Source: Petrosia ficiformis (lineage: Eukaryota > Porifera > Demospongiae > Haplosclerida > Petrosiidae). Taken from it: DNA of 64,000 nucleotides. The notes beneath the pieces were generated by a model. That model saw nothing but the letters and a program-made list of their open reading frames with translations, did no database searches and was not told the DNA's origin. Below are positions 12,001 through 59,224 of the stretch, piece after piece. The first letter of the stretch is position 1; every line of letters starts with the position of its first letter. The stretch lies in NCBI GenBank assembly GCA_947044365.1, contig OX345637.1, positions 7,093,201 through 7,157,200 on the forward strand, read 5' to 3'. The position numbers and the translations under genes are program-made.

Positions 12001-15000
12001 ACTATTCCATGTTTGCTATTAGATCTACATGTACATGTAGTTATTGTAATACAGTACTAGTCTATTATTATTACTACTATTCCATGTTTGCTATTAGATC
12101 TACATGTACATGTAGTTATTGTAATACAGTACTAGTCTATTATTATTACTACTATTCCATGTTTGCTATTAGATCTACATGTAGTGTCAAGTTAGCCTGT
12201 TCATATAGGCGTATGAGATGTTTCAGTTTGATTCGGACACTGCCAGCTGAGCTGCCTTGGTACATGTAGCTCAGTTGGTAAAGCATCTGTCCGGAGTACA
12301 GAGTGTTGTGGGTTCGAATCCCACCTGAGGCAACTCTCATTTTTCATTTTTCCATTGCCTCAGGTGTCTTTCTTTCTTTCTTTCTACATCTCCGATGTAC
12401 AATTATTTTATGAATGTGCAAATACAGGGACATCAGAAGAAACGACAGGTTGATGATTCACGATATACATGTAATAAGTTAATAACGTGTATTATCTATT
12501 TACATTATTATAATGTTGGCTATTATTCATTATGACCTTTTCATGGGTGCCATGATTATGATCAATTAAGTTACGCTCTCAATCTTATGATTGCTAATGA
12601 TGTTCTAGTTCAATCATCAGCGTTCTTACCAAATTCATTACCACATAGCCACTCATTTGTGGTATGATATTTTCTCTTAATGGTATAAATATAATCATAT
12701 TGCTGCTCAAAAAATTCTTTGTTCTTCTGTTATTAATAAGAGAAGTAATGAATGCACTCACAATGTGCACAACACTCGCCACAAGTATGATTGGGAAAAA
12801 AGAATGAACTACTGACAAGAAAATAATTGCAGACTATACATGACTGTAATAATGATTACTATACTAAGATTATAATCATTATACATATATATAATTATTA
12901 TTATACTAAGATTATAATCATTATACATGTACATATATCCCGATACGGTGAAACATCAAAGTAAACCACAGGTTTATAAATCAGATATAGCACCCTGCCA
13001 TCGAAAGAGACTACAAGAAAACAACGCTTACCTTGTCCAAAGTGCCGACAAAAAGGTAGGAGAAGCATCAGACATCAACAAAGGTTTTGTCTTTCGTGAA
13101 ATATATTATTTATAACACGCCCACTCGTGCTATATTGGATTTATATGCACCTTGCCCTCGGGCTCGGTGCATATAAATCCAACCTAGCACGTAGGGTGTT
13201 ATAAATATTACATATATTATTATACTAAGATTATAATCATTATACTTATATTATTATACTAAGATTATAATCATTATACGTGTGTGTGTGTGTGTTACAA
13301 CTTGCACTGCAGTCCTACATGTAGCAAGAATACAAAATTCCTAGTACATGTTTAAGAAGCATAGTGCTTAAAAGCCTTTATAAAACAGTTTTGTGGCTTC
13401 AACTACATGCATAAAATGAATAGGTGAAGCTAGAAATTGACATGGACGAAAGTTTAGAGCCAGCTTGATGTTGTAGCAGCCACTACTTCAACTGTACTTA
13501 ATTTCAAGCTGTGATTCAACAGTGATAGCCTTCAAACATGATGAGTTGTGTTTCAGTGAACTCTTTTGATAACAGAAGTCTTCATAAAGTAGTGAAATGG
13601 CAATTGTGAGTTGTAAAATTTGTCATAACTTTATAAACGAAAGATTTTAGAAAAAGCCTGTCTTTAGTTTGATCCTTGTATAACTTCACCAGAAACTTTG
13701 TTGATACATAAACACACACACACACACACACAAACAGAACACCAGATTACAGTAACCCTCTGCTCCGCCTACATGGGCGAGGGCTAATTATCAGTAAGCT
13801 AAGAATGGTGCTAGTACACTGCTAAAGAAGCCGACTAGAGATTATTTAATTTGAAATCATTGGCTGTTAAGATTTGCAGATATACAGTGGTCATGCCTCA
13901 TTAATAGCAACAGCTGAAAATTTTGGGTAGGGCATTCTGCCCTGCCAGTTCTGCCACCCTCTCCATGTGTTTTATACATATTACATGTCTATAATTAAGT
14001 TATTGGTGTAAATTCCTTTAGTTTACATGTAATACTCAATTATTCACGATTTAAAGTCTACAATGTAGTATGTACATGTATGTATATCATGTGACATTGA
14101 GTCAATCATGTTTTCATATACTAGTCACCTGATCACGTTTTAAACTGCACACTCAAGAGCAGGGGTGTGGAAACATTGAGCCAACTGCCGGACATTTTGG
14201 CCTATTTTTGCCACTCTTGTCCTGCTCCCCATATACTTTGTATACAGTTCAGTTTCGTTTTACCGGACATTCACTAGATTTATCGGACAATGTCCTGCAT
14301 GACTGGCTGTTTCCACATCCCTGCTCAAGAGTGCATTAACTACTCAATAGTGCCTTAACTACTCAATGCACAGTTACAGTACATGTACATGTACTTGTAC
14401 ACGTTTTACTTCTGAAATGTGACCAAACACACTAGAAATGTGAAGTGATAGACATTAAATCTTGTACAACATTCTTACAGAGTATTAAGTGTTACAATGT
14501 GGCATTCAATGAAGGTTTCAATTAGATAATATACTCACTTTGCATACATCATTCACACTAGCATCTGGAATTGTTCCATCATGGTTGCTAAGCACAGTTA
14601 AATTAATTTATTTATTTTGACAAGAAGTCCCATCAGCTTCTAGCTGGGAATCCCTCAAACATCACTAAGACGTATACAAGTTCATTTTTGGGGATAAAGC
14701 TGGACCTAGTCATGGAACACCGAACAGTTATCATGTTCGTTGCATGACTTCAGTAGTAGACTGAGTGCCAAACCCACTAAGCCACTACTGAACCCAATAT
14801 CGATTCAGTATAGTTCAATGATGAGTAAGAACGGAAGGAAACTGTGTTAGAAATGAACTTAACAACTTGTAACTTTAAATGTTCGCTATTCTGCCATTTG
14901 TATAAGAAGCCAATAAATTTGCTATTTGAATGTTAACTTTTTATTGACTTATACTGTACATGTACATGTACATGTACATCAGAGTAGGGGTGGGCGGTAT

Positions 15001-16236: not shown

Positions 16237-16515
16237 ATTGTCTCAATTTGTCTGAAAGCAACTGTAGGAAAACTTGCCAATTGCTATAGCAACTAGAATG
16301 ATCACGTGAAGTAAATTTATAGAAGAATGTGGTCGCATGGTCAGTTCAATATGCAATGATCTATATAAGGTAGGCCAGCCATTTGGTCTGATTATTATAA
16401 ATTTATAATTATAGTCATATATATATATATAGATAACTGTTGTATGTTAGCGAATGTGTTTCAAGAATAGGTTTTAGTTTAGAGATCTAGGTAGACTATA
16501 TTATATAATATTATA

Positions 16516-16563
<48 letters not shown>

Positions 16564-16609
16564 ACTGACTATGAGTATAAGTGTTTTGTCTTCTTGCGCA
16601 TTCAGAAAA
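16237..16609. promoter_or_regulatory. Shared spacer between the divergent sirtuin and receptor genes
   Basis: 373 bp separate the two start codons, so both promoters must lie here or in untranslated exons. It contains ATCACGTGA near 16302-16310 and an AT microsatellite (about 16518-16558) next to the receptor start. No clear TATA box can be assigned because of the AT tract. Confidence 0.5.
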
Positions 16610-26722: not shown

Positions 26723-26769
<47 letters not shown>

Positions 26770-28218: not shown

Positions 28219-28256
<38 letters not shown>

Positions 28257-31139: not shown

Positions 31140-31184
<45 letters not shown>

Positions 31185-34100
31185 GCATGATTGTTTGTAT
31201 CTCTTAGTGTTTATTGCATCCTTCATGTGTACAGTAGATTATACATGTAGTTCAACTACCTGTACATGTACATGTATGTCCTGGCAAATCAAGTTGTACA
31301 TTATACCTGAGTTTAATTATGATAACGTGTACATGTACATATACAGTGTATACATAATTACAAATGTATATTGCACTTACATGTACATTCATATCAATTT
31401 TTCTTCTGGGATATTACATACATGTACTCTGCATTTACATGTGCATGTACCTGTAAATGTATATGTACATATATACATAATTATATTGCACTTACATGTA
31501 CATTCATATCATTGTTCTTGTGGGATATTACCTACATGTACATGTACTCTACATATACATGTACATGTACATGTACCTCAGATCCATTATCACCAGCTGC
31601 TGCCAATATAATTACATTTAATTACATGTACATGTACATTATACATACATGTACATGTACAATTGTACATGTATGTTTATAAATGAGGAAATTAATTGAT
31701 ACATGATGATAATTAAAATAATATGGCTTACATGTACATGTACATGTGTATATTTAATAATGTACATGTACATTACATTACATTACATGTACATGTATAC
31801 ATCATGTTTAGCTCATATATACAATTATACATGTACATATGTACATGTAATCGTCTGTTCATCTGTCTGTTTGTCCTAGATTTCCTAAGAAATGTCACAT
31901 CTTCTGAGATAACATCAAATTCAGCAAATATTCGATGGAATGTAAGTTAAGAGTATAAGTTTACATACAGCTCCATGTACATGTACATGTACTGTATGTA
32001 CTATCGTGATATAATGATACCAGAGTTTTTGATATGTTTTGAAACATGGGCCAAATTGGCTCAACAATGGTTAGTGTGTGTGCCACTGCATGGGAATACA
32101 TCTTGAGCTAATTAACAAACAGTTAATGCTGTCAGTGACATTATAAGCATACATGTAATTAACCGCTCCATATGGCCCAATGAGAGAACTGTGCAGTGCC
32201 AAATAAGAAGCTCTTTGGGCCAGTGGTGCACCATATGAGCTTATCAAAAACACTGGATGATACCAATATCACTCAGCTCTACTATGAATTCTTTATTAGG
32301 AATTTATGACTGTTTATAATTGCATATATTTTTATGGCCCGTAGGGCCATCCCTATAATTGCTTTCCACGGGGTTGAATCTATATATATATGTTTCTGTC
32401 ACTTGCACGACTATGCATTGTATACGTAGTTAAGGAAGTTGCGTCATTCCCGGGGGCTCGGTCAATTAATGGGCGTGGCGCGTAAAAGAACGCGCGTTGG
32501 AGCTACAGACCAGCCAGGAAGTTCCAGAAAGGATGTAAAACTGCTAATAACTGTTTTATATAGCAGAGAAACAGTATAAATATTATGCAAGAATCTTTAA
32601 CAAGTAAGTATGATAAGTTGTTGAGTTTCAGACATGAGGAAGTCATCATTTAGAACCTTGAATGAGCACTTCAGTCAGTTCATCAGAGATCTGTGTATTT
32701 AGACTGCAATCAGGCTTACACTTACTTCTTCAGGCCCCAGCTTTCGAGTACACAGAAAGGTAGAGACACTAGTGCCATCAGCAATGCTTAATACGTAGTT
32801 ATCACAAAGCAAATATAGGGATGTTTTTTTCTCTATATACACTTGTTTTCATGTTGGAGCCCAACAACCTAGTATAGTTACATGTACATGTTTTGGTTTT
32901 TATACTCTTTTTTACTTTTTGAAGATTCTTGTATATTTTTGGCAATGTTTTCAGCTACAATAACTATTCTACAAGCTGCCTGATTCCTGCTAATCTGTAG
33001 ATCGAGTATGTGAGATTTTAGTTTTGACACTGATCAGATATTCAGTTCATTGATAATTATATGGATAACCAGATATTCATTCTAACCCTTTTTAAGAGTA
33101 TTTGCTGTTTAGAAATACTTTGACAATCATATACAAGATGCAAATACTTAGAACTAAAAACCTTCAAATACAAATACTTTAAAATATTTAAATACACGTA
33201 TTTGACCCAAGCAGGACTTGAAATTAACTTTAGAAGTCGATGGTCCCATGGACAACCATGTAATGAAATTTAGTTTTCCAGGACATCTTAATTTCTTTAT
33301 TAATAACTATTATTATTGCTGATCATGTGACCTGTGGCCAATCAGGTGCAGATAATGCGTCACATGATTGAACATTAAATCACTTGTTGCACACTTTTGC
33401 GTACAATAAGTTAGTTATTGCACACTTTGCTCACCTCTTCTAACGAAGCTGCTCCAACAACTACATGTATAATACCCCTTTTAGTAAGGCATTTTGACTT
33501 TTAGCTAACTAAACTATAACTAAATTAGTAATACATGTACATTTACATTGTAAGTAACTAAAATTGGCCAATAATGGGCACTTCTAGTTAGTTAACTAAA
33601 ACTAAAAGCCTTTTTGTAAGCTTAATTTTAGTTAATTAAACTATAACTAAACTAAACTAAACTAAAAGTTTGAGAAACCAAGCCTACTATAACTATAACT
33701 AAAAGTAGTTATTAATGTCAAGCTATAACTACATGTGTATATACATGTACATGTATATAAATAGATATACTTATCCGATTATAAAGGCTAGTATTGATTA
33801 TTAAATACATAATTTTTTTCACATTACATTAGAGAATACAGAATGAAACCAGTCTTATTGGTTACCAAATCTTGTTTTGGGAGATTACAACTACATCATA
33901 CTACAATATAACAGTTGGATTAGTCTCTAATGCTGTCCTTGTTAATTTGACAGCCTTCACTTCTTATTATGTTAGTGTTAGGGGAGTGTGTGAGGAGGAG
34001 AGATATGGAGTAGCATCAGATAGGATTGATATCTCAACAAGATCAGGAGGTATTAGAGAAGATAAATAAATCGGTAGAAGGCACAAGTATCCTAATGAAA

Positions 34101-37100
34101 CCCTAACAATGCCAGTACACCTAACATACTTCTTAAACAGTAAATACAAGATGTTGTAAGATATAACACTAACAATGCCAGTACACCTAACATACTTCTT
34201 AAACAGTAAATACAAGATGTTGTAAGATATAACACTAACAATGCCAGTACACCTAACATAAAATCTTGTATAGGTGTACTGGTATTGTTAGGGTTTTATT
34301 AGGATATTCTTTACATGTGCCTTCTACTGTAGGAATAAATCACCTACAAGTGGTTGTGTGGTGTGCTACTCAGCCACTACTCAGGTTATGCAATACCGAG
34401 CAGGAACATGAATATGATGGTACATGTTCAGTGTTGCATGAATGGGAGTACTCTATTCCCAAGAAATGGCTTCTATTCTATATACATGTTTACATCTCAG
34501 TGTTGTTTGAAGATTTGTACATGTACAGTACATGTAGGTATGCCAGCTAGAAGCTGATGGGACTTCCTGTCCAAAATTTTAAAATAGGCTTAATTTTAGC
34601 TCCTACACAAAATGGCATAGTTTACACAACATTATTTTATAAGATTATTTACACAATGTCTCTGATCTGTTAATCAAATTCTATATCATTTATTTATGAT
34701 AACTTCCTTTAGCTCCTTCACAAGCTCCAGTAATTACTAAAAACGTAACTCACTACTTGAATCAAGTGTCACGTGCTCTGCTGGAATGGTTACCTATACC
34801 AGATGATGTGTGGAATGGTGTTAGATTAAACTATATTGTAATAGTTGCAGACGTCACACCAGACTTTAGCCGTCAGGTTGAATATGAGGTTGATTATAAT
34901 GTCACTAGTTTAGAAGTTACTAGGTTGGAAGTAAGTAATGTCTCTACTTTCAATATACAACTGTATCTGTGGAATTATTCATCAACCCATCCATAGGTCC
35001 ACCTACACATGTACATGTATCTATTCAGCATTTCATTGGTCTATCCATTGGTCTATCCATTAGTCTATCCATTGGTCTATCCATTGGTCTATCCATTGGT
35101 CCAGCCATCAGCACTTCATAATCTTCTATACTAACAGCATTTGTCATTTTCCTCTTTTAGCCTTATTAGTTAGAATTTAGTGTTCATTTTCTTGTGAGGC
35201 GAGATTAGTAAAGTATTGTTTGTAAATCTATCATTATGTACATGTGTATAATAACAAGCCAACAGAATGTATTATCTGTGAAGCTTAATGACACCTCATC
35301 CTGGTCTTCCTGTACATATAGTGATGATATAGTGACAAATTGAATGTAAGCATTTGATCCAAATTATTGTTTTGCTGGAAAAGGTCCTTAAATTTGGTTA
35401 CATGTTATTATCATGTAACTGAATGGATGGATTGAGCAATGGATTGATAAATAGATGAATAGATGTATCCATCCATTCAACTAAGTATTCATCTATCCTA
35501 TATCAATATACAGTATGCATGTACATGTACATGTACATGTATGTCAATAATTGTCACCATACAGTAACATCTAGTTGCAGTAATTACTTTTGTTCTACTG
35601 TCCAGTGTTTAATTGACAAGTACATGTACACCAATTAACTATAACAACCAGTAGCTCGTTTGAGCTGTCAATGTTTGTAGTTTTCCCAATTTTTGCGAAC
35701 AGACAGACAGACAGACACACACAGACACACAATATGATTACCATACCCTTTCGTATATATACGCTTCACAGCGAGAGTAACCACTATTAATTACTGTAGT
35801 GTGGAAATGAAACTACTGAATAATTACTGTACTGTGTGTTGATTTTTTATTGAGATATACTGTATCTATATTCATTTCCTTTGTCCATCAATACATGTAC
35901 ATGTACATTCAGTAGTACATCCATCAATCCATTCATCATTCATGTATTCATTACTTACAGTTGGACCACACATATCTGGCTGCAGTATATGCTCAATCCA
36001 GTGGAGGTTTAGGACCCAGTAGTAATCTAGTGATATTCACTGTGGGTAAGTTAATGGGAAAATTAGTTATGTACTGTACATTACAACAATTATACATTAT
36101 ACATATTTATTGCTGATCATGTGACGTTTGGCTAATCAGAGAGCAGATAATGCGTCACATGATTGAACATTAAATCACTTATTATTGCACACTTTTGCGT
36201 GCAATAAGTTAGTTTTTGCTCACCTCTACTAACGAAGCAACAGTGGTAGTTTACAGATCGTCAATAAATCACTTAGTACACACTTGAAAGTGCATTGTAT
36301 GTTTCAATGTAGCACTTGGGCAGTCAATAAAGGTCTTGTTTACATAACACACTCGCCTTCGGCTCGTGCATTATGTAAACTCAACCTTTATTGACCCGCC
36401 CTTGTGCTACATTGAAACACGTTATCACTGTAAAGTGTGTTCAACTATTACTTAAATGTACTGTATAAATAGTCCAATGCTTACCTACATGTACATTTAT
36501 AATCACTTATTGTTTGGCCATTTTGTACACACATCTAAGGAACTAATGTTCTCTTTTATTGGAAACCTAGTTTCATTGGCTTTCTGTACTAAAAGCGTAA
36601 TCCAAAGGGATTGTTCTAAATTTAGTGCCCATTAATTAATGTGGTCAAGAGAAATGGGTTGTGTTTTATAAATGGTAATTACAGGTTTCCAATCCCTTTA
36701 TAAACATATATAGACTGTTCACTTACTTACTCTTGTTTTGTTCCATAGAGGAACCACTGGAACCAAATACTTCATCTGAGAATCCTAGTTATGTGAGTTA
36801 CTTTTACTTTCTTATCATTCCATGTGCACTGGTGGTGGCACTGTGTATCACTGCAATCGTTATATGTGTAAAGAGACAGTCAGAGAAAAAGAAACGTTCT
36901 GTTAGTTTTGTAACAGGTGAGAACATACATGTACATCTAATATACATGTATTTAATATATACATGTACAGTGAAACCCCTCTATTGAGGATACCCTGAAA
37001 TGAGGATACCCCTGTATTAAGGACACTAAATGTTCCAAATTGTTCTTTATAATGTAAATTCACCCCTGTAATCAACACTTATATTTGTTCCAAGAGTGTT

Positions 37101-40100
37101 CGAAATAAAGGGGTTCCACTGTATACATGTACATGTAGAGTTACATGGAGAATGTACTTCCAAGGTTCTCACTGGGATTCCATAGCATCTCAATCAATTC
37201 CTTCTTAGCTCATTCATAATTAATGTTTGGGCCAGTGGTGCAGTTAAATATGATTATGTTGTCACTAACAGCATTAACTCTTAGTTAATTGGCTCAAGAT
37301 GTATTCCCAATAGAGCACACACTAACCATTGTTGAGCAAATTTGGCCCATGTTTCAAAACTTATCAAAAACTCTGATGCATGTACATGTACTTGTGTATA
37401 CAGTATTACTGGACATTCACTAGATTTATTTGGACTGTTTCCATAGTAGCATATTCCATAATGATAATAAAATGGTAATATGCTGGAGTTTTTGATATAT
37501 TTTGAAGCATGGGCCAAATTGGCTCAACAATGGTTAGTTTGTGCATCATTGGGAATACATCTTGAGCCAAGAGTTAACACTGTTAGTGACAATAATAGTC
37601 ATAATTAACTTCACCATCTGGCCCAAATAGAGAACTACATGTATGCTGTACCAAATAAGAATTAAGCTCTTTGGACCAATGGTGCAACATATGAGTTTAT
37701 CAAAAACTCTGCAATAAGCTATACATGTAATTGAATGAAGTACATTGTATATGTATACCACAGATTGGTGTGTCTATGTGTCTTTCTATTTTAATTCTTG
37801 GTGAAAACACTCGATACCTTCATTCAGGAAATATTTCTTTTCTTGATCATTTGTGCTCTCTCTGATCTCAAAAATTATTCTTCCTGTTTTGTTTTGCATA
37901 GAATGGACTAAAGTCCGTTCGCGTTGAGTTGGGACTTTTCTCATTAAATATTCATCTAATTTCAATAATTACACAATTAAAACTTACCATAGTAACGCAC
38001 ATCCCACCATAGTAACCACGCTTTTTCACGTGTAGTCCATAACTGTGAGTTATATTATAATTCTTTTTATTGTCATTCATCACTTATTTCATTTCCTTGA
38101 ATTTTTTTTTGTTTACTGTCATTCATTACTTATTTCATTTTTATGAAAATAGTGAGTTATATATATAATATTGTAATATAAATACGCTATCGTATTATTT
38201 ATGTATCGTCAACTAGAAATTTTTTATTCACTCACGAAGCACATTATTATCTATGATATTATACACCCATTTTACTTACCTCGAGGTAACTTTGTCGTTC
38301 CAAGTTAAACACACAGAGTAAGACAGGGATGTGTTTTCGTTTACTACCACCGCGTGCTTTTAATTACATTCATGAGTAAAAGGAGTAATTTTTACCTATG
38401 AATATTTAATGAGAAAAGTCCCAACTCAACGCGAACGGACTCTAGTGATGCACTGATATGAATTTTACTGATATTCACATAAACCAATAATTACTTTAGA
38501 TATGTACTGATAACTGATAACAATCTGATATTACATGTATATCTACCCTCTAGTATCATGCTTTTAATGAAATTAAGCATTTATGTCAAAAATTACATGT
38601 ACATGTATGAGTATTATAAAAGATGTTATAATCACAAGAAATGACAATATTAGTACATGTACACTTATTTATTACACTATCAGATACATCTTTCCAATAC
38701 CAATACTAATTACCAATCCAATTATCAGTGCATCACTTAATGTATAATATACATGTACATGTATGTCACATTTCACATTTCAATGTCATTACTTATGAAT
38801 TACTCTACATATATTCATAGTAGTGATGTTTAGTAATGAATTATACAATGTACATGTACATGTCGAGGTTGCTTTCTTTAATAATTAATGTCATGAATGT
38901 TAATGATGTTATTCCTGTTTTATTGCGCAATACATTCATCCTGTATACACATTTACATGTATATATACATGTTGTATAATTATAATATAATTATGTTGAC
39001 ATTTATAGTAGGAACTCATACATCTGTTCATACATGTACATCAATGTAATCTATCTATCTTTTTAAATAGATATTAGCACTAATATTGAACAAGGAAGGA
39101 TAAGAACTAGGTAAATACAATTTCATGTTTATTGTATGTACATGTATGTCAAACTTAGTCATGTCACTAATTATAATTGTAACGAAATTGTCATACTCAA
39201 AATGGTTACAAGTGTGATATACATATATGTAACATATATGTAATATATATAGTATGCTAATAGGTCCTATATACAAAATATAGGACCTGAGTTTGTGTCC
39301 GAGGATGTGATATAAGCCGAGACTGCGAGGGCTATATCACATCCAAGGACACAAAACAAGGGTCCTATATTCAGTATATAGGACCTATTAGCAGACTTTA
39401 TGCAATATATTGTATGATGTTGACATCTCCTGCATAGTGTGCACATGGAAGGTCTACATACAATATATAGAACTCACCACACATATATATATATATGTGG
39501 TTCTGTCACGCTTAGGAATGCAATAATTAAACGTACGACCACAGGCACGTTAATTCGTAGACCGCGCGTACTGTTGATGGCGTACTGCTCTAATGTAGAG
39601 ACGAGTAAGGAACCTACAAGTGAGGGAGCTACAGCACGCCTTCGACACCTAGCTACACTGAGAAAAAGAAGCAAAGTGCGGGAGCTACAGAAGAGGCCAA
39701 GACAGAAGAGAAATTAAGAGGTAGAGAACAGAAAACAGCGAGATCTACATGTAGATGAGAGTGAACGACAGGCAAGACAATCCCGTGTATGTTAGCATCA
39801 TCGCAAGGATCACAATATGACAAATCACTAAATTCTCTCTTCTTTCCTGCCATTATAAGTGTCAAAGTCAAATAATAATACCATTGTGTGACTAAAACCA
39901 CACCTTTCTGGATATTAATCGACTATAGTGTAGTGCGAGTGAGACAGTCTGCGCATACGTATTCCTAGTTTAATTTCTTAATTATCAGTTTAAGTGATAA
40001 TAGCTAGTTGGTTAGTTGTCTGAGTGTTAAACCACTGCATATCCCGAAGAAAAGTGCTTGAATATTGGGCAAAGTATGCAACTCAATCCGAGCCTCAATC

Positions 40101-43100
40101 TGAGTCCTTGAAGCAAGTATTTCAAACTATTGTTTGTAGTCTAAAGGATGAAGACATGTCTCTAAAAGCTGTTCAGAAGCTCCTCATTAATAGTGTTGGT
40201 GAAAGAGACTATTCTGCCCAAGAAACATGCCATCTGCTCCTCCAGCTACCTATGATTGATACCTCAGGTACCTTTGTCACACTTAGTCTTGATGGATCTC
40301 GAGTTGTAGAAGATCGATTAGATGAAGGCCAGCCAGCAACAGCTGCATCTCTACTAGATCATTACATTGCTCGTCCTGCAGCTGAAAACATCCATCGATC
40401 AAACATGTGGCTTTCAAACTGTATTTATCCATCAAACACGTGGCTTTCAAAATGTATTTACTAATAAATAGATTTTTAAGGAATATGTAACTACATTCAA
40501 ATAAAAAGATTTTTACGGAATACGTACACAAACAGACATATAATGCAAACTTTCCAGCTAACTGATAAGTGTGGGGCTCGCTCAGGCTCGCCCCAACAAT
40601 AGGGAATATTTGAATGTAGGCTATTTTTTCAAAATTATTTTGTGCCAGAATTGTAGATCAGAGGGTATTGCATCTAGACACTTTAATTGGAGTATACAAT
40701 GTATAATATGATACTATTCTATACAGTACTATTTAGTACCATATACATGTACATATATGCTATAATTATTTCATGCTAGGCAAAGGGCCCTTACCATGAA
40801 ATTTTAAAAATACACGTTCCATCTCAAGTTAGTTGTGGGATTTCCATGTTAGTACATTGTATAGTACCATATATGCTCTAATTACTAGGTTACATGGAGC
40901 ATGAGCCCATAGCATGAAATTTACATGTACATATTTCATCAATTAAGTTACATGTTGAATTATAATCTTAACGTGTGCCTAATAATATTTTTATTAACTG
41001 ATTAATAATATTTTTATTATTAATTTTATTGTTTATATTTTGCCTTCTATCTCTCTCATTACATGTTTATAGTCATTTTAATAACACCTCTCGACTGGAA
41101 GCTGTTCGAACTTCTCAAAGAAATCGACCTCTCCCTGCCCATCCTGTGGAACATACACCTAGTGTTTCTAGTATGCATGCTCATTTAATTGACCAATCAT
41201 CGCCACAGCATCAGAACTTTGAAATGGAACATTTTCATCATCATCGTCAGATGCATTATCCTGAAAATCTACCAATGTTGGATACAGAGCCACATAATTT
41301 TCATTCCACATCAATCACTAGTCCTCCTTTTCCTCAGTTATCACAACCTTTGTCTGATTTAAGCAGTGCCACACCTAGTTCAGTTTTTGTAGAGAGTGTA
41401 ATCCCCCATCAAGACAACAGAAACCTCCTTTCTCCAAGTAATCCTAACCCATACGAGGTTCCTAATGAGTCAGAAACTGGTCATGTCTCAGTCTCTCCGA
41501 CGGGTAACATACATAATTTCCCTCACTTCCAGCGCTCACATACATCAACAGTAGTGAGCCAGCCTTTTACCCACTCTGCACCAATGCATCCTCCTGCTCC
41601 CATTACACAAAGTTCATCTGAACTGTTTCATGGCAGCATTCCCCCAAATGTACCACCTCATCGAACCAGTAACACTCTTGGTCGTATTCACTCCCCGATT
41701 TCTCCTGTGGAAGTTGCCCGAAAAGGTCATTCTGTCTCTCCTAAATTAGTTCGCCCAGAATCTGGGCTGTATTCAGAGATTCCAGGAGAAACCTCTCCAG
41801 AGAGGAAGGAGCCGAAGTTTATATCTGCTGTTAATCCTAGTTTTGGTCCCTCAGTTCCTTACCATTCTGAGGGTAACAATAGCTCTATTGTTAGCTCTGA
41901 TCAGTACAGTGATTATTCCGATATTCCATCAGCCTGTGGCCCTCAAATTGATAACAAAATACATGAACATCGTGGAAGATTACCACCGGATGGATTAAAC
42001 AACCGCACCTCCTCTTTGTCCGATAGTATCTCTTCATTTTCTACTGACAGTCAAAGTGGTAGTCCATATCATGGAAGACATCTGAATGGAGAACATACCA
42101 ACAGTCATGTGGATGATACAAGAAAGTCACTTGAGGTATGTATAAAAATATGAGTATCTCTCAGTTGTTAGCGGTATGGAAACATTGAGCCTACTGCTGA
42201 ACATTTTAACCTATTTTTACTACTCTTGTCCTGCTCCCCATATACTTTGTATACAGTTCAGTTTCAATTTAGCGGACATTCACTATATTTACCGGACAGT
42301 GTCCTGCACGATTGGCTGTTTCCACTACTATAACTAATAAGGCATTGTAATCTTATAACTAAATTACAAGTCTATTGCAATAACTAAAACAAAAAAATGG
42401 CCAATAATGGGCACTTTCAGTTTATCAACTATAACTACATGTATAACTAAAAGTGACAAGTAAACCAAACATGTGGCAAGCTACAAGTGTATGTATTGTT
42501 GGTTGACAGTGTTTAGTCAAATGTTTAGACTATGAAAAAATGTATAAATGACAGTATGCGTAAAATACTTTCATAACTTTAACTGAAACCTTGTTAGTGA
42601 ACTGGTACTCGTTATGAATAATGTACATGTACATGTACTTGTACATGCACTTCTACTTGTACTTTTACTTAAGTTGTCACTAACTTGTGCTGAACTACCA
42701 ATTTGTGTGGTGATATACCTGGTAGTATTCAATAGTTTCCAGCAAACTGGTTTTTCCTTTCAACAGCAACATATTTTCTATTTTTCTTATACATCAAATT
42801 GTGTATACTAAAAATGCTTGTACCAATACCAATCTGTGTACTTTGCCCCATGTCTGGTAAATGTATTGTCATCTTTTTTACATATACCTGTATACACTGT
42901 ATATACTCCACATTAACATACACCCCTCTAGCAGTGTTTAGTTCACATGAGTGTTGAACTACATGTATGTTATGTAATACCACATGTACATGTATATATA
43001 GCAACACATCTCATTTGTAATTAGTTTATGCTACACATGTGTTGAACAGCTACATGTACATGTACATGTACATGTATAGCAACACATCTCATTGGTAATT

Positions 43101-43512: not shown

Positions 43513-43899
43513 ATACTATAATAATAATACATAATTATAGTCATAGCCAAAATTCATTACTGATTCGAATGTTGTTCCTCTTCATTCAGTATCTATGTCC
43601 AGTTACAAACACATTCTTTCTTTTAATCTTCTACTTATAGATCTGCTGTTCATATTTGTCATTAATTATTGTTCTCTTGCTTATAGTAAAACATTTACAA
43701 TGCTATCCTTTTTGTTATAAATTAAGTACCAGTATGTACAAAACTTACTTGCATATGCTATTTGTATGTGTATTCATACTTGTTTTTTTTTTTATTGATT
43801 TTTCTTTGTGTATCTTCATTTGGAAAATAATTGTCATTAATTTTCCATTTCTCTTGTGAGGCCTTGAGGGGTGGGGCTCATAATTAGTGGGCTCCCAGC

Positions 43900-44237
43900 C
43901 TAGTATATACCACGTGAATCGGACGTGATGAAGGTGTGTTAGGGTTGTGACGGATTTGCACGTACACGTCACGTCCAATGGTCTGATTTTTTGGAGCGCT
44001 TTTTTTATAAATGAAGTTCCTCTTATTATAATAGACAAAAGCCGTCAAAACTCAAAAGGCCAAAAGCCGGTCTGATAAAGAATTGCTGTCACTGACAACT
44101 AAGTAACGAACTATTTGAGTGCGATAGTCTTTAAGAAAGCAACTTTCATGATGTATCACTAGATGCTTTGGAAATCTCCAGATCCATCCACTGTTTGTTT
44201 TTGTTTAAACGACATAGTTGTTGATTTCTGATTTCTC
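43900..44237 (+). promoter_or_regulatory. Probable promoter region of the EXS gene
   Basis: The gap from the receptor stop (43512) to the EXS start is 725 bp. Its last third contains CGGACGTGATG, ACACGTCACGTCC and a CCAATGG near 43975, like CRE half-sites and a CCAAT box. The first part is AT-rich receptor 3' UTR or spacer with nothing else recognised. Confidence 0.4.
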
Positions 44238-46268: not shown

Positions 46269-46436
46269 CAATATGTAATCAGCCTTGATCTTATGTTGGG
46301 ACTACAGGTCCACTTTTTTGTAATAGACCATGTGAAATTATGAAGATTGTATTTATTACTTAGTATTTATTTTGCTCTTTTATTTATTTGATAGGTTCAA
46401 TAGGTTGAAAGTTCATAATTACCGCCAAAATGTTAT

Positions 46437-46458
46437 GTGCGCATGCTCAGTTAATAAA
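46437..46458 (+). promoter_or_regulatory. NRF1-like site and AATAAA in the 214-bp EXS-XRCC1 gap
   Basis: TGCGCATGCTCA (about 46438-46449) differs by one base from the NRF1 consensus YGCGCAYGCGCR. AATAAA at 46453-46458 is the only canonical poly(A) signal I see between the EXS stop and the XRCC1 start. It lies 24 bp before the XRCC1 ATG, so the EXS transcript may end inside the XRCC1 leader. Confidence 0.4.
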
Positions 46459-46482
46459 TGTGCCAAATTAGCCAAAATAATA

Positions 46483-49400: not shown

Positions 49401-52400
49401 CAATACATGTACCTTTGTGGAGGTGGTGGGTAATGTACAATTACATGTGTTGATAGCACATCAGGTGTCTGGGGCATAAGCATACATCTTCAGAAAAATT
49501 GGACACTTTGACATCCCTTGTGTAAATGTATTATGTACTGTATAGTATTAATGAATGATGTTACTAATTGTTACTAGTCATGGCAACACATGTTGCGTAA
49601 TGACTTTTGACTGCTTTGAATTTTACATTCCAATTTATATTTCCACTCAGACAGAAAAATATGGTCTTTCATTTGTAACTCTGCACTCTCCTCCTGAAAT
49701 TAAGGATGGGGATATTCCCCAGGACATAGCTGGAACAGCTTCCTCAAATGCTGGCAAGAAAATTGGAATATTTTCAGTGAAAGAAGAAGTCACAAGTCTT
49801 CCATCTGGTAGTTTGTTTTTTAAAAAGGGAGAGAAGAAAGATACAAATAATGGAGGATCATTAGCTGTAAAGGTACTTGTACTTGCAGAACATATATTGT
49901 ATATGTATGTGCAGTATTGTACGTACACATAATTACATGTATGTGTCTGCAGTACATGTACACATGTAATTATGTACATGTACAGTACGAGTGTGAATGT
50001 ACAATACACAGTACTTGTGTACATACTATTTGTGTACATGTACATGTACATGTGTACAAGTACAATGCACACATGTATTCTCAAGCATTGTACACGTGTA
50101 TACAGTGTATGCAATCCAAGTACGAATGTACCGGTACACACATTTAATTCCATATAGGCTCCTTATTGTATCTATCATCTTTGAGCGTATAATAACAATA
50201 AAATATTCTTTCGGCCTGGAATCCTTCAGCTAGAATTCTACCTGAAGAAGGCTGTGTTTTTTTTTACATAATTATGTATAGTTGCTTACATATGTACATG
50301 TGTATGTACATGTGTATGTACTTGCACATTTGTATAATGTACACAGCCATGTACATGTACATGTACATGTACATGTATGTACACATGATGTCATGTGTAC
50401 ATGTACATGCACATGGTACGTTCGTGTACATGCATACATAATTTCATAGGCTAGACAGGCATCTACTAAAGCTCTCAAAGAAGCTGAATCAACATTAGCT
50501 GTTAAACAAGACAAACCTGTTTTTACAAAATCTCCTAAAACTGACTCCAGTACAAAGGAGACAGAGCCAATAAGAAGAGTAAGTTTATAAACTTTATATA
50601 CATGTACACATGTACATCAGTGTTTTTGATAAACTCGTATGGCGCACCATTGGGTCAGAGAGGTTCTTATTTAGCAGCACTGCACAGTTCTCTCTTTGGA
50701 CCAGATGGATATTATCACTAACAGCATTAACTGTTTGTTAATTGGCTCAAGATGACATGTATTTCCAATAGTGCAAACACTAACCATTGTTGAGTCAATT
50801 TGGCTCATGCTTCAAAACGTATCAAAAACTCTGATATACATGTACGTGTACATTGTACATGTACATGTACATTGTACACACATGTATACATTGTACATGT
50901 ACATGTACATTGTACATTGTACATGTATAGTTATTGTCTTTTTTTAATAATTTTAATCACCAAGTACCGAACCACTTCAAGATACATACAGTAGTCATGA
51001 AAAAAAAAAATGTACATGTAGTTGACACATGTACATACTATATGTACATGTGTACAAGTTTCTGAAGTTGTTCTGAAGTTGTTCATTATTCTCCATGATT
51101 ATAGAAACATCCCACATCAGTCATATCAAAAGAAGCTCCACCCACAAAGAAACCCAAAGGTACATACATTTAGGTTATATTTAATTAATTGTGTTCCTCC
51201 CATAAATTAACATTCACCATGACATAGAAATGTTCATAAGAGTGACCAATAACCATACCATTTTCATATTATCCTTCCCATTCTTTTTTGTGTATGTCGA
51301 ATTTCAATCTATTGCTTCATTATTGAGTTACAGTATAATAAATACATGTACATGTATATAATAGTAACTGAGTGAGATGGTGCTTTTATAAACACTGATA
51401 GCTCTTTTCACCCACTAACTAAAAATTCTTTGTGAAACTCTCCATGTACATTGTACTCCATGTACATGTACATTGTACTTGTATGTATTTCTTATTTCCT
51501 CACAGTTGAAGAGAGACCAGAGGACACTTCTACTGGTTCAATTATAGTTAGCGAAATAATGGTGAGTTTAAAATGTTAAGTACATGTATTACTAATGACA
51601 ACATGTACAGGTACATTGTATATACATGTACATGTACATGTATATACAATGTATATGGTCTTTAGCTTTTTACTTTTTGATATTCTACAATCGATTATTA
51701 AAATCACATGACTCAATAAAACATTGTTGTATAAATGAAGGTAAACATCACATGACTAATTAAAACATTGTTGTATAAATGAAGGTAAACATCACATGAC
51801 TCAATAAAACATTGTTGTATAAATGAAGGTAAACATCACATGACTAATTAAAACATTGTTGTATAAATGAAGGTAAACATCACATGACTCAATAAAACAT
51901 TGTTGTATAAATGAAGGTAAACATCACATGATTGTTGTATAAATGAAGGTAAACATCACATGACTAATTAAAACATTGTATAAATGAAGGTAAACATCAC
52001 ATGATTGTTGTATAAATGAAGGTAAACATCACATGACTAATTAAAACATTGTTGTATAAATGAAGGTAAACATCACATGACTCAATAAAACATTGTTGTA
52101 TAAATGAAGGTAAACATCACATGACTAATTAAAACATTGTTGTATAAATGAAGGTAAACATCACATGACTCAATAAAACATTGTTGTATAAATGAAGGTA
52201 AACATCACATGACTCAATAAAACATTGTTGTATAAATGAAGGTAAACATCACATGATTGTTGTATAAATGAAGGTAAACATCACATGACTAATTAAAACA
52301 TTGTATAAATGAAGGTAAACATCACATGATTGTTGTATAAATGAAGGTAAACATCACATGACTAATTAAAACATTGTTGTATAAATGAAGGTAAACATCA

Positions 52401-55400
52401 CATGATTCAATAAACCATTGTTGTATAAATGAAGGTAAAGATCACATGATTCAATCCATTGTTGTACATGACCATTGTTGCTATATATCTCGAATGTGTG
52501 ATTTCATTAATTAGTGGAGATGTCATCATCATGATCTTATTTACTTCAAATGGGTTATGTACATGTATGGACATTATTTCTCTATTGTTGACATGGAAGT
52601 TATATAACTGATCCAAATATCCTGTTACACATGATAGCCTCATTGATTCATCTGGTTTTTACACACATGCACATGTACATGTACATGTATCCTTGTTTCA
52701 TGTACATGTACTGTTTTTTATTACACATACACTGTACACACATGTACATGTAGAAAGGAGTAGTGTTTACATTGAGTGGATTCAAGAATCCTTATCGTGG
52801 GGACTTGAGAAGTAAAGCCATAGAAATGGGTGCAGAATATGAGTCTGATTGGGGACCTTCTTGTACCCATTTAGTGTGAGCAGATTATCTTTTTAAAAAC
52901 TATTCTTTTTATCCTCTTGTTGTGTTCTCTTTTAGATGTGCATTTGCTAACACACCTAAATTCAATCAGGTTAAAGGTAATGACTAATGTACATGTGTAT
53001 AATATACATGTACATATATACATGTACATGTACAAATTAATGCATACATATACATGTGACTGTGGACAAGAAAAGTCTTAACTTATTAGAGACTTTGGCA
53101 CTTTGACTGCTCTTCTTCCTAAAAACGCTGTATGGTATCAGAGGTCCACGCAAGTACATGTACATAGCGCCAGGTATTATCCATTGATAGAAATTAAATT
53201 ACAGCTCCATTGTAAACTTATCTATTTGTGGCTATAGAATGTGTTAAGACTCATTTTCTTATCCACAGTCGTTTCTGTGTGCATTTGTACATGTACATAT
53301 ACATGTATATAATACTATATTACATTTTTTGTATATAAAATTGTATACATGTAGATGTATATACATGTAATTGGTGACATGTTGAGTAGTATACATGTAT
53401 AGTATACAAGTATGCAATGTGTATTTGTATGCATGTACACAATGTACATGTATATAATTGTATACATGTACATGTACATGTGTATTGATTGTGTAGAACG
53501 TGTATATTCTATAGCGTATGTACATTGTACATATACAGTATAAGTCAATAAAATGTCACCATACAGTAACAGTAATTACCTTACATGTACATGTACATGT
53601 AGTTCTACTGTCAGTACAGTACAGTAATCACTACCCCACTACTGTGGTGTTGAATTGATAACTATACACGTATACCAATTACTGAGTAATTACTGTACTG
53701 TATGATGACTATATTTTACTTATACTGTACATGTACATTATTATTAACTCTACTACAGTATAAGTCAATAAAATGTCACCATACAGTAACAGTAATTACT
53801 TTAGTTCTACTATTGAACTACTGTAGTGTGATAATGTAACTACTGAGTAATTATTATACTGTATTACAATGTATGACTTTATTGACATATACTGTACATA
53901 TATCATGTAATGTACAGTGTGTTAATTTTGCAGCTAAAAAAGGTTTAGTTGTCAAAAAAGAATGGATTTTAGACTCACGCAAATACCAAAAAAAACTTTC
54001 AGCATCAAAGTATGTATAATCATGTAAATGTACATGTACATGTACATGTACTGTATTAGTATCTGTCCATCTAACCATTTATTTACAATGTATCTATCCA
54101 TTCATACATGTATGTTGTTTCATGTACATGGTACATGTATCTACATGTATTTACATGTATCTAACCATTCATCTATTCATTCATGTCCATTCATCTATCC
54201 ATTTATCTATTCATTCATCTAATGTACACATGTACATGTACATGTACAATGTATCGATCCATTCAATTATCATATATTTATTGTATTCATCTTTTCAAGC
54301 ATTCTTCCCGATATCATTTCTCAGATATCGTTTCTCATCAGGGAAAGATTCTGACAGTGAAATAGAATTTTATAACAAGAAAGAGAAAGAAATATTCAGA
54401 AATATTAAATATACCAAGAAAGAAGAGGAGGAGAAGAAAGGTTTAGCTATACATGTACATGTACATGTACGTGTCATGTACGTGTCATGTCATGTACATG
54501 TATATCTTGTGTTACTGTAAACCTGGTTTCCATATACGTGTAGATGTACACTGTACATGTAGATGTGTAGATGTACACTGTACATGTAGATGTGGTTTGT
54601 GTGCTGCTTTCCAAAACCTCTTGCAACTCGATTCATGTGCAATCCTTAAACTTAATAAGGACATCATTACATGACTGTAGGACAAGCTGCTACACAATTC
54701 AAAAAATTATTGTAGGTAGGTAGGTAGGTAGGTAGGCAAAATTTTATTTAGCCAGGGAGGTCTCATCAGCAAAAGAGCTGGTCTTCCTGAGAGCCCTGGT
54801 AAACAAACAAATACATAAATAAATGATATAAGAAAAAAGGAGAGAAAAAAGAAAAAATAAAATAAAATAAAATAAGAGGAAGAGATAAGTAGGCATGAAG
54901 TACAAAAGTAAATAAATAAATAAATAAGTAAACAATGAATACAAGATTACATATTAAAAAAACAATAATTAAAATGTTTGATTGAGGTGGCGTGTCTTAT
55001 CTCCTTAGTTAATGAGTTCTATAATTTAGTGGATCTATACGTAAATGAATTTTTATACCAGTTTGTAAGAGGTCTGATAACATATAGTTTATCATGGTTT
55101 CGGCCTCTAGTGTGGATGTTGTAGGTAAAAAGGTTATGAAGGTATGGTGGTGAATGTTTATTGATTGATTTGAAGGTGGATAATGCTCTTCGATACAGTT
55201 TCCTGTCATGAAGTGCCATTGCAACTCAAGTCTGAGAGGATGAGAACTCATTCCCAGTGGCTTGTTTAAAATAATCCTCATTGCCTTATTTTGCACTTTT
55301 TCAATTCTATCAGAGAGTGCGGATGTACTGGGGTCCCAGACAGAGGGGCAATATTCCAAAATTGGGAGTACTAAGGCTTTATAAAGACGTTTACGTATTG

Positions 55401-58383: not shown

Positions 58384-58423
<40 letters not shown>

Positions 58424-59224
58424 TTCATCTCAAGTCATCATGTATTTATTATCTACATGTACATATGCTTATTGTCTACATGTACATGTATTTATTATCT
58501 ACATGTACATGTATTGTAAGGTCTTTTCCAATAATTATAACTAACTAAATGAAGTTTGACCAATAATGGGTTAAATAAAACGTTTGTATTTTTAGCTGGT
58601 GTGCAAAAAAAAGCATCAACTCCTACATCTACTCCTGTTGCCATGGTACCTGAAGTAGATGACCCATATGGAGGATCAACTGATGAAGCTTCTGATATGG
58701 AAGCTGAAACAGGTATGAGGATTAGTACAGTACTGGAATGAGTCTTCATGTTACAATATGTCTGGGTAGTATAGGAATTAGGAAGGAGAAAGTAGTAAGT
58801 CCTTGGTAGTTAGTATAGGAATGAAGATGTACATGTATATACATACATGTACATACATGTACAGCTAGAATGAGTTTTGGTAGTTAGTATAGGAATGAAG
58901 ATGTACATGTAGTACATGTAGATATTACATGTACGCGTATATAGAATGAGTTTTGGTAGTTACATGTAGTATAGGAATGAAGATGTAGTATATGCAATTA
59001 TGCACGTATATATAAAAGTACATGTACATGAATATTGGATATATTATTTATGTGTATACATGTAATTGTAAACATTGTATACATTATGTACATGTACATA
59101 TATATTGGATATACATGTACATGTACATGTATATATTGTGTACATGTACATGTATTGCATTAGTTGGCAGGATTGGTCGTCATGGAGACAGTGAGGAATA
59201 TGATACAGAAGATGAAATTGAAAG
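46483..59224 (+). CDS. XRCC1: XRCC1 DNA single-strand-break repair scaffold, 15 exons, BRCT2 outside window
   Basis: Scaffold that joins DNA polymerase beta, PARP1, DNA ligase III and PNKP at single-strand breaks in the nucleus. Exons: 46483-46533, 46652-46744, 48048-48084, 48486-48629, 48980-49059, 49651-49872, 50450-50578, 51105-51159, 51506-51561, 52754-52875, 52936-52976, 53934-54009, 54325-54440, 58596-58712, 59164-59224; 466 codons plus 2 nt, phases all fit. Seen: XRCC1 N-terminal domain from MPVIKFKHV through NRVRMFG, WDRVKIVC and LSFVTLHSPP; BRCT1 at about 290-370 (VVFTLSGFKNPYR, THLVCAFANTP, KKEWILDSRKY); basic PPTKKPK near 264-270 as a possible nuclear signal; DPYGGSTDEASD at 430-441, matching the CK2-phosphorylated PNKP/aprataxin-binding cluster; DTEDEIER as the last residues. 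No BRCT2 exon is found up to 64000, so the gene should continue to the right. The exon 13 donor is a weak GTTTAG. Confidence 0.93.
47330..47972. repeat. Duplicated and inverted segments in XRCC1 intron 2
   Basis: 47334-47445 recurs inverted at about 47774-47876 (GAACTCCAAGGCCATACACA side). 47516-47596 recurs directly at 47891-47970, differing by one 6-bp GCATGT unit. 46825-46990 recurs directly at 47590-47775 (TGGTACTAAATGAGTACTGG). The rest of the intron is AT-rich and without features. Confidence 0.8.
48185..48409 (+). mobile_element. hAT-type MITE, family 1
   Basis: Complete copy with perfect 8-bp duplications TTGTACAT at 48177-48184 and 48410-48417. Lies in XRCC1 intron 3, about 76 bp before exon 4. 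Confidence 0.88.
49071..49369. mobile_element. hAT-like element with TAGTGATGTGCGATAC ends in XRCC1 intron 5
   Basis: Inverted ends TAGTGATGTGCGATAC (left) and, inverted, TAGGGATGTGGGATAC (right), with perfect 8-bp duplications CATTTTAC at 49063-49070 and 49370-49377. It begins only 11 bp after the end of exon 5, next to the splice donor. The interior has GTATCGATAC palindromes. Confidence 0.83.
50618..50833 (+). mobile_element. hAT-type MITE, family 1
   Basis: Copy in XRCC1 intron 7. Flanks ATGTACAT and ATATACAT agree at 7 of 8. It has an extra ACATG (5 bp) near 50754-50758 relative to other copies and an internal deletion. Confidence 0.83.
51703..52460. repeat. 44-bp minisatellite with higher-order structure, XRCC1 intron 9
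   Basis: About 18 units built from ATCACATGACTCAATAAAAC (A), ATCACATGACTAATTAAAAC (B), a short form ATCACATGATTGTTGTATAA (C) and B lacking TTG (B'). The order reads A B A B A C B' C B A B A A C B' C B A', so the block A C B' C B A occurs twice. Confidence 0.93.
53536..53727. mobile_element. Tc1/mariner-type MITE (TA|CAGTAT...ATACTG|TA), copy 1
   Basis: Flanked by TA on both sides, with CAGTATAAGTCAATAAA at the left and an eroded inverse at the right. It also has internal inverted CAGTAATTAC segments. Relative to copy 2 it carries an extra 18 bp, (ACATGT)3, at 53583-53600. Lies in XRCC1 intron 11. Confidence 0.72.
53756..53894. mobile_element. Tc1/mariner-type MITE, copy 2
   Basis: Shortest form, 139 bp: left CAGTATAAGTCAATAAA, right TTTATTGACATATACTG, TA on each side. 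It keeps the empty T|A at 53802/53803 that copy 1 has filled. Lies 39 bp before XRCC1 exon 12. Confidence 0.78.
55009..56389 (-). pseudogene. LINE ORF, 3' part: reverse transcriptase, frameshifted
   Basis: Reverse transcriptase of the same LINE in two main frames (56006-56389 and 55009-56097). Seen: NKSSGPSEI, IPFLWKVANITPVHKKGD, NYRPISVIPTLGKILE, then FIDFSKAFDS, GVPQGALLGPLLF and the catalytic YADD (about 55746-55757), then YLGVIID. Frame breaks lie near 56400, 56030-56090 and 55215. After the last one the better C-terminal frame is 55019-55219, which ends at a TAG where related elements usually have the Trp of a WNSL motif. No RNase H domain follows. Confidence 0.9.
56775..58097 (-). pseudogene. 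LINE ORF, 5' part: 2A-like leader, PHD finger and APE endonuclease
   Basis: 440-residue frame from an ATG at 58097. Residues 10-21 are hydrophobic and run into GDIEINPGP at 22-30. A PHD-like Cys/His pattern follows (CTIC, CDCC, WTHTKC, WFCPTC; about 36-90). The endonuclease fold spans roughly 140-370, with AHLNIRSL, LSETWL, LLLGDFNCD and the catalytic SDHH near 346. The frame leaves the true reading near 56860-56880; a parallel frame (56437-56883) carries the linker between endonuclease and RT, with RPKKLPWINEDIRD. Confidence 0.9.
58008..58031 (-). other. 2A-like ribosome-skipping motif DIEINPGP in the LINE ORF
   Basis: The eight codons read D-I-E-I-N-P-G-P (residues 23-30), an exact match to the D-(V/I)-E-x-N-P-G-P consensus that makes ribosomes skip the Gly-Pro bond. 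It sits directly after a hydrophobic leader and before the PHD finger. 2A-like sequences at the N-terminus of APE-type non-LTR elements are known from other invertebrates. Activity in this copy is not shown. Confidence 0.85.
58795..58990. repeat. Tandem repeat with unit-specific ACATGT insertions, XRCC1 intron 14
   Basis: Units share TTTTGGTAGTTAGTATAGGA and ATGAAGATGT. One unit has ACATGT inserted at 58962-58967 (GTAGTT, then AGTATAGG); another at 58905-58910 (GATGT, then AGTA). Confidence 0.85.

Follow-up and report, generated by a model that had tools for sequence, protein, structure and literature searches.

Hexamer insertions at TA in unrelated repeats of a sponge genome resemble excision scars of a Tc1-type transposon

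Cut-and-paste elements of the IS630/Tc1/mariner type insert at TA and leave characteristic footprints, the closest described being that of Tc1 in Caenorhabditis elegans, for which taCATGta is given as an excision product (PMC3520976, citing Eide & Anderson 1988). Tc1 breaks are described as carrying non-complementary 2-nt 3' overhangs, with variable repair products in the C. elegans germline (PMC4490562), and a +4 scar is reported as the typical somatic footprint, at 78% (PMC13148408); the published target consensus is AYATATRT or, extended, CAYATATRTG (PMC9635669). For Sleeping Beauty and Tc1-mariner elements a palindromic AT-rich target, ATATATAT, is reported (PMC3271037), and the Sleeping Beauty footprint is TAG(T/A)CTA, with three bases between the TAs (PMC2874221). 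The rejoined donor site of ISY100, a bacterial IS630/Tc1/mariner element, reads TATATA (PMC2170065). The octamer TACATGTA is also known as a very abundant regulatory motif, both as an Irx homeodomain site and as Phytophthora motif-1, and the authors of the Phytophthora study state that they do not expect it to be a transposon footprint (PMC3520976).

The insertions described here, from the sponge Petrosia ficiformis, are most like the Tc1 footprint, sharing the TA target, the consensus AYATATRT, and a TA duplication that together with CATG makes TACATGTA. They differ in that the C. elegans form is described as typically somatic, whereas here such scars are fixed in large numbers in a reference genome, and neither of the two scarred positions tested shows a donor. 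Sleeping Beauty and other 3-nt-stagger footprints have similar TA flanks and a palindromic AT-rich target, but the 3-nt type tested (TACAGTA/TACTGTA) is barely enriched here (1.3x and 1.2x for TACAGTA). The ISY100 overhangs are inferred to be self-complementary with one copy kept, whereas both CA and TG are kept here, and although the regulatory motif is the same very abundant octamer, the empty and filled pairs in this genome show insertion. Among the matches listed from open-licence literature, none treats scars of the form TACATGTA or ACATGT as remains of transposons across a genome, and the only listed matches to TACATGTA or ACATGT are to the Phytophthora motif paper.

Derived +6 gains at TA, each giving TACATGTA, are seen inside unrelated repeats in the window, which is the whole 64,000-nucleotide stretch analysed (Table 1). 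A first-pass annotation had listed nine filled and empty pairs, and all nine are present in the window where it placed them; seven are clear, and those at 42437 and 35517 are less secure. Its assertion that copies always differ by exactly one unit or an exact multiple is too strong, as TATGTA, TACATTGTA, TACAATGTA, TACACATGTA, and longer mixed inserts are also found, and the 5-bp case near 50754 that it had singled out as fitting less well is indeed a MITE copy with an imperfect scar. It also wrote the insertion as ACATGT between T and A; the gain is real, but this notation hides the more useful parsing as a TA duplication plus CATG, and TA-CATG-TA is the best parsing of the gain.

Table 1. 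Hexamer insertions and related features in the window, with their empty partners
Feature	Coordinates	Strand	Remarks
Hexamer scar, ~490-bp repeat	39747..39752		Empty partner 3561/3562; repeat 93.8% identical
Hexamer scar, tRNA-like head of SINE	12262..12267		Empty partner 19303/19304; 721/737 genome copies empty
Hexamer scar, hAT-type MITE copy 32021-32255	32151..32156		ATCATA|ATTAAC here in other copies
Hexamer scar at a different TA, hAT-type MITE copy 37486-37711	37637..37642		Empty partner 10600/10601, other strand
Imperfect scar (+5), MITE copy 50618-50833	50755..50760		TACATGTCATC versus TACATC on MITE strand; scar minus one A
Hexamer, 'family C'	42437..42442		Empty partner 33694/33695; shared flank short, ~9+12 bp
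Three-unit scar	53583..53600		Empty partners 53802/53803, L018:6878, L018:6991
Four units, the first GCATGT	35517..35540		Empty partner 53761/53762; loose homology, ~8 bp shared directly left
Hexamer in unit of 74-bp tandem repeat	58905..58910		Empty partner 58986/58987
Hexamer in unit of 74-bp tandem repeat	58962..58967		Empty partner 58885/58886
Additional hexamer scar, newly found	9283..9288		Empty partner L011:5544
Additional hexamer scar, newly found, adjoining 44-bp tandem array 8387-8568	8608..8613		Empty partners near 8539 and 8456
hAT-type MITE copy	8645..8868	+	Ends CAGAGTTTTTGATA...TATCAAAAACACTG; 8-bp duplication ATGTACAT; without hexamer at the 32151 and 37637 sites

With a probability of roughly 0.7, every ACATGT marks a repaired site from which a TA-targeting IS630/Tc1/mariner-type element with 5'-CA...TG-3' ends was excised. 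Such an element would insert at TA and duplicate it, giving TA-element-TA; on leaving, the transposase would cut two bases inside each 5' end so that each flank keeps a 3' overhang CA, and end joining that preserves both overhangs would yield TA-CA-TG-TA, six bases more than the empty site has. Between its two TAs the scar would hold the last bases of each element end, CA and TG, and its sequence is consistent with ends of this kind. It would offer two TAs and a short direct repeat, from which later visits or slippage probably produce TA(CATGTA)n and then (ACATGT)n arrays. Among the observations that count against this reading, half of the insertions at one tested TA (14/28, in a MITE) are not scar-type, and the scars are very uniform, unlike the variable germline Tc1 repair in C. 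elegans.

The octamer TACATGTA is present 894 times in the window (both strands) compared with 50.8 expected from a second-order Markov model, and 454 times compared with 43.3 in a 200-kb sample of 16 contigs that includes 5 kb of N. Genome-wide there are 278,911 occurrences, a total that includes chance background, arrays, and a satellite (~438-bp, at the start of contig C1), versus 173,257 for ATGTACAT, which is the octamer with its letters reversed. Most exact 8-bp runs of the (ACATGT) cycle are in TA phase, with 78/113 in the window (TA..TA 78, AT..AT 13, GT..GT 11, CA..CA 6, and TG..TG 5) and 82/130 in the sample. Ordinary birth of a hexanucleotide microsatellite by slippage or chance mutation is extremely unlikely to account for this: (ACATGT)n arrays exist and double and triple units occur, but a single unit can appear at a lone TA that has no copy beside it, and no other palindromic octamer tested exceeds 5.6x except ATGTACAT (11.8x and 6.5x), which is part of every array. 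The earlier view that slippage is no explanation holds at the genome-wide sites tested, where the empty partners lack the motif, although slippage may explain the growth of arrays.

Of the 6-bp gains in complex flanks, 16/90 are ACATGT; five of these come from SINE copies that were selected for carrying the insertion, and their removal leaves 11/85, of which two (L018:8340 and L030:2645) are poorly aligned. The next commonest class is AAAATG (n=8), consisting of seven copies of one SINE site and one duplication-like case in another family, and no hexamer other than ACATGT is seen to recur across several unrelated families among these six-bp gains in complex flanks.

At one TA of the SINE, 16 of 737 copies genome-wide have an insertion of 1 to 30 bp, and the remaining 721 are empty, in agreement with the proposal that the hexamer is the derived state. 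These 16 comprise nine with exact ACATGT, two with double units, three close variants, and two others, such that 14/16 are scar-type; the only short insert is TAGGTA, which is equally a GGTA duplication. Gains of one or more units at TA in unrelated repeats are borne out at the genome-wide sites tested; in a further such listing, 99 of the 100 entries listed (from 140 matches) are a one-base subfamily, and the only other listed is CATGTA. Tandem SINE units form two pairs, in L030 and L039, one pair 168/175 identical and the other 177/181, and in each pair one unit is filled and the other empty. These pairs stand against inheritance from a few filled SINE or MITE master copies, with few events multiplied by retrotransposition or duplication, as does the finding that the 12 of 16 filled SINEs that were fetched belong to two subfamilies with mostly different flanks, and that gains fall at different TAs of one MITE and in unrelated families. 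Some sharing by descent is visible, in that L035 and L036 have the same flanks, L038 has their body variants, a distance of 45 bp separates two of the MITE TA insertions, and one longer insert occurs there twice in identical form, but as a general account master copies are very unlikely. A search for a resident element at the SINE TA finds that 0/13 copies with an exact left flank continuing CA contain one, all reading CATGTA or CATGGA; copies whose flanks have mutated, or that have G as the final letter of the pattern, escape this search.

The hAT-type MITE, with 3,410 first-look candidates genome-wide and 40 scored, has insertions at one TA in 28 copies versus 1,426 exact empties. Seven are exact ACATGT, seven are scar-like variants, and 14 are other sequences, with the shorter and longer scars TATGTA, TACAATGTA, and TACATTGTA present once each, a spread that imprecise end joining might give; at a non-TA position in this MITE, where insertions alone were counted, there is a single one, and it is not the hexamer. 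There is no recurring transposon end at this TA, as nine of 16 places continuing with CA are scar-type and the other seven are all mutually different. Neither the SINE TA nor the MITE TA is found in empty, occupied, and scarred states. The MITE itself is rejected as a source of the hexamer; it has 8-bp duplications, often ATGTACAN, and therefore uses the arrays as targets.

Another conceivable source is templated repair of ordinary breaks by polymerase-theta end joining, primed by TA microhomology, with an ACATGT array in the vicinity as template for CATGTA. It would suit the hexamer-rich surroundings of the fetched filled SINEs, which have 34 TA-phase 8-bp runs in 33.3 kb compared with 82 in the 200-kb sample. 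It would likewise suit the very uneven density of TACATGTA, from 0 to 52 per 10 kb, and in C. elegans templated inserts are known where Tc1 has left a break (PMC4490562). Priming from a copied array could use each of the cycle's six dinucleotides, but the TA phase dominates, and every clean ACATGT gain in the indel table can be placed at TA; non-scar-type inserts are 2/16 at the SINE TA, though 14/28 at the MITE TA, where insert lengths are also more varied. Templated repair is quite unlikely.

The sequences around isolated scars share a further feature with Tc1. Among 130 isolated TA(CATGTA)n sites (112 single, 15 double, and three triple, providing 260 flanks), A is avoided at +1, R is found at +2, and T at +3 (0.58 versus 0.36, z ~7.5) on both sides, with T mildly avoided at +4. 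TRT is present on 76/260 flanks, whereas the background averages 29.4 and reaches 46 at most, and this excess persists without flanks close to CATGTA. The overall bias is AYA-TA-TRT, as in the published Tc1 target, but the proven filled sites in the SINE (GG-TA-GCT) and at 39747 (TC-TA-GAT) do not fit AYATATRT. Some control alternating octamers have a weaker flank bias (z <=3.2 at +3 and <=3.8 at +4).

A TA-specific process could instead write CATG plus TA with no resident element, through a minimal or abortive transposase end or through a TA endonuclease of a new kind with fixed-tetranucleotide repair, making the hexamer a product rather than a relic. The lack of any recognisable element at the two scarred positions and the uniform product at the SINE TA (nine exact and two double of 16) would be expected from it, but the scar and its flank bias coincide with published Tc1 behaviour and Tc1/mariner-type elements abound in this genome, and we consider it unlikely. 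We know of no such element-free process. A broader conjecture, which we hold to be doubtful, is that a TA-recognising transposase-like activity writes the hexamer without a stably resident element or, more mildly, that the scars come from a Tc1-type element with very high turnover and, as in somatic tissue, preserve the overhangs yet are inherited, since gametes would come from general stem cells and not from a set-aside germline; the scars would then be a main source of ACATGT repeats and fresh landing sites for other elements. Were the excision-scar reading true, one kind of scar would have been fixed very many times and would be a major origin of one class of hexanucleotide repeats; this would clearly exemplify microsatellites that start from transposon footprints throughout a genome. 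The scars would also allow past cut-and-paste transposition to be counted, even after the elements have gone, and the repair route of transposon breaks in this animal's heritable lineage would be testable from sequence.

The donor element of the scars is unproven, and several candidates have been considered. Family A (L041-L044, with ends CT...AG) is rejected, as the scar expected from it, TACTAGTA, shows no enrichment (0.8x and 1.3x). A de novo search for TA-flanked inverted repeats is swamped by microsatellites and recovers family B and a few others, among them a palindrome of 62 bp (L010) and a CAAGTG element of 255 bp (L047), which have no further full-length copy in the sequence examined. 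Among the listed large TA insertions identified by alignment chaining, most are microsatellite artefacts. Tc1/mariner-type transposases are abundant: of 323 candidates, 150 DDE_3 matches were scored, and many of them lack inner stops. TA-duplicating elements with CA...TG ends also reside in the genome: L045-L048 have common ends CAGGG...CCCTG flanked by TA, L049 has an altered left end, and next to the L047 copy one arm of a repeat displays the empty TA, indicating TA duplication.

All nine filled and empty repeat pairs from which the first-pass annotation had described ACATGT gains at TA are present at its coordinates in the window, G000:C2:7093201-7157200; seven are clear, and those at 42437 and 35517 have short or loose homology. 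The observation is confirmed and its first reading supported. Aligning the window and the fetched loci all against all (L002-L008 and L040 omitted; 8,856 alignments), and counting indels only where flanks are complex and the empty partner has no ACATGT nearby, gave ACATGT as 16 of 90 six-bp gains; the 16 include five SINE copies fetched for being filled (11/85 without them), and two of the remaining 11 (L018:8340 and L030:2645) are poorly aligned. The second-commonest gain, AAAATG (8), comes seven times from copies of a single SINE site and once, resembling a duplication, from a different family, and other repeated six-bp classes are mostly within tandem arrays or a single family. TA events additional to the first-pass list are tabulated.

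The motif is abundant well beyond these pairs. Under a second-order Markov model, TACATGTA is 17.6-fold over expectation in the window and 10.5-fold in the 200-kb sample (including 5 kb of N), and across the 191 Mb searched (29 contigs) it occurs 278,911 times, with a satellite supplying part of this total, versus 173,257 occurrences of ATGTACAT, the same letters in reverse order; TACATGTACATGTA occurs 44,606 times versus 27,235 for its reverse. Exact ACATGT-cycle stretches run from TA to TA in 78/113 (window) and 82/130 (sample) cases at 8 bp, and in 20/32 and 10/15 at 14 bp, so that TA(CATGTA)n, and not an unphased hexamer, is the natural unit. An 8-bp variant scar, TACACATGTA, is 5.0-fold (window) and 7.3-fold (sample) over expectation and is found in two SINE copies; it may come from CA slippage inside a scar or from a longer footprint.

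Single TA positions of two repeat families were tested genome-wide. At the first TA of the SINE tRNA-like head, 737 copies match allowing 0-30 inserted bases, and 16 have 1-30 inserted; at the second TA, among 100 listed of 140 matches, 99 belong to a subfamily with one extra A (TTGGTAAGAGC, e.g., G000:C1:1308939) and one has CATGTA. One TA of the hAT-type MITE has 1,426 exact empties and 28 copies with an insertion, and a non-TA position of the same MITE, for which insertions alone were counted, has a single one genome-wide, a duplication. Some long MITE inserts look as if scars had been revisited or more of an element end kept.

Inserts at TA sites, and locations of events and other features
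Feature	Location	Count or detail
SINE first TA, exact ACATGT		9/16
SINE first TA, ACATGG		1/16
SINE first TA, double units		2/16
SINE first TA, ACACATGT		2/16
SINE first TA, four-base (TAGGTA)		1/16
SINE first TA, eighteen-base duplication		1/16
MITE TA, exact CATGTA		7/28; two are 45 bases apart
MITE TA, TGTA		1/28
MITE TA, CATTGTA		1/28
MITE TA, CAATGTA		1/28
MITE TA, longer, starting CATGT		4/28; two identical
MITE TA, others		14/28; e.g., short tandem duplications
Long MITE TA inserts, CATGT to ATTTGTA	G000:C6:3470330, C6:3580875, C10:624740	
Additional TA event (indel table)	window 8608	
Additional TA event (indel table)	window 9283	
Additional TA event (indel table)	L016:3916	
Additional TA event (indel table)	L030:902	
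Additional TA event (indel table)	L030:2591	two units
Additional TA event (indel table)	L031:2336	
MITE copies with exact 8-bp duplications	window 8645-8868, 17799-18022, 29872-30095, 48185-48409	4/10 window copies listed
Satellite near start of 63-Mb contig	G000:C1:17897-54302	period ~438 bases; units with TACATGTA, among matches listed
Second convergent open frame alongside the DDE_3 transposase, one copy of family A	L042:2114-2761 (-)	215-220 aa; Pfam match none or weak
Second convergent open frame alongside the DDE_3 transposase, one copy of family B	L045:2162-2824 (-)	215-220 aa; Pfam match none or weak
Remnant non-LTR retrotransposon	window 55012-58127 (-)	reverse transcriptase in a different frame from the endonuclease and PHD-finger domains
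Open frame with EXS domain	window 44232-46265 (+)	678 aa
Tandem array	window 51699-52449	unit 44 bp, higher-order unit 325 bp

For INDEPENDENCE, the fetched set covers 12 of the 16 SINEs with a filled or extended site, the window copy among them; these represent at least two subfamilies with mostly different flanks. L035 and L036 are mutual duplicates, and L038 may derive from the same event. Tandem SINE units in L030 (168/175 aligned bases identical, variant GAGATGCC common to both) and L039 (177/181, the filled unit having the ACATGG form) pair one filled with one empty unit. The simplest reading of these sequences is that one unit would have gained the insert after duplication; as the majority of SINEs lack it, loss from the empty unit is less likely.

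Read as TA-CATG-TA, the insertion equals a published excision footprint of Tc1, an IS630/Tc1/mariner-type cut-and-paste element. In published work, taCATGta is a rare Tc1 footprint motif in C. elegans (PMC3520976, citing Eide & Anderson 1988), a +4 scar is the typical somatic footprint (78%; PMC13148408), Tc1 breaks have non-complementary 2-nt 3' overhangs (PMC4490562), and ISY100 shares the Tc1 cut position (PMC2170065). CA and CA overhangs, both retained, would yield TA-CA-TG-TA, and we infer that end joining in Petrosia ficiformis usually keeps both. In the germ cells of C. elegans, Tc1 breaks are repaired variably and in dependence on polymerase theta (PMC4490562), which makes the uniform inserts at the SINE TA notable. 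We consider Tc1-type excision scarring the probable mechanism (roughly 70%), most likely followed by later array growth. Sponges are not known to set aside a germline early, and we speculate that soma-like scars become heritable for this reason.

Target preference was examined at 130 isolated sites (112 with one unit, 15 with two, and 3 with three; flank duplicates and the SINE site removed), pooling both flanks on reverse strands. Beyond the flanking TA, A is avoided at +1 (where C is not assessable, as it would lengthen the run), R is favoured at +2 and T at +3 (0.58 versus 0.36, z ~7.5), T is mildly avoided at +4, and there is no bias at +5; TRT on both sides together occurs at 0.115 of sites versus a background of 0.033 (maximum, 0.085). 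The bias persists when flanks within one or two mismatches of CATGTA are dropped, which argues against decayed arrays. The same bias is absent around pooled other TA..TA palindromes, and other alternating octamers are biased more weakly (at +3, z reaches 3.2; at +4, 3.8). The scar flank pattern, AYA-TA-TRT, equals the published Tc1 target, AYATATRT within CAYATATRTG (PMC9635669).

Transposases of a possible donor type are abundant: 323 candidates came from a search for DDE_3, and all 150 that were scored match, many without inner stops. Families A (L041-L044; ends CT...AG) and B (L045-L048; ends CA...TG, CAGGG...CCCTG) are TA-flanked, L049 being a family B member with an altered left end, and one transposase of each matches DDE_3, with a Tc3-type helix-turn-helix match below the curated cut-off. 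The family B copy in L047 lies inside a repeat whose other arm has an empty TA. Family A would leave TACTAGTA, which is not enriched in the window or sample under the second-order Markov model; family B would leave TACATGTA and is a possible donor, this predicted scar being its sole tie. At the SINE TA no resident element was seen, 13/13 CA-continuing copies being scars, and at the MITE TA 9/16 are scar-type and the other seven mutually dissimilar, in left-side tests that pass over elements with non-CA starts, sites whose flanks have mutated, and one alternative base at the pattern's last place. Had elements once occupied these sites, some should remain in place, and this gap is the main weakness of the excision explanation and sets its probability; either nearly every site entered by the donor is later vacated, or the donor has become rare, or the gains take place without an element.

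The hAT-type MITE, with ten copies by alignment in the window and two in the 200-kb sample, itself inserts into ACATGT arrays, which suit a hAT-like target consensus; three of its four exact 8-bp duplications are ATGTACAT, ATGTACAG, and ATGTACAA. A demosponge source is likeliest, judging by the TRIM-NHL protein of sample locus L021, whose only named relative among 120 listed of 773 matches is from Amphimedon queenslandica (45% identity).
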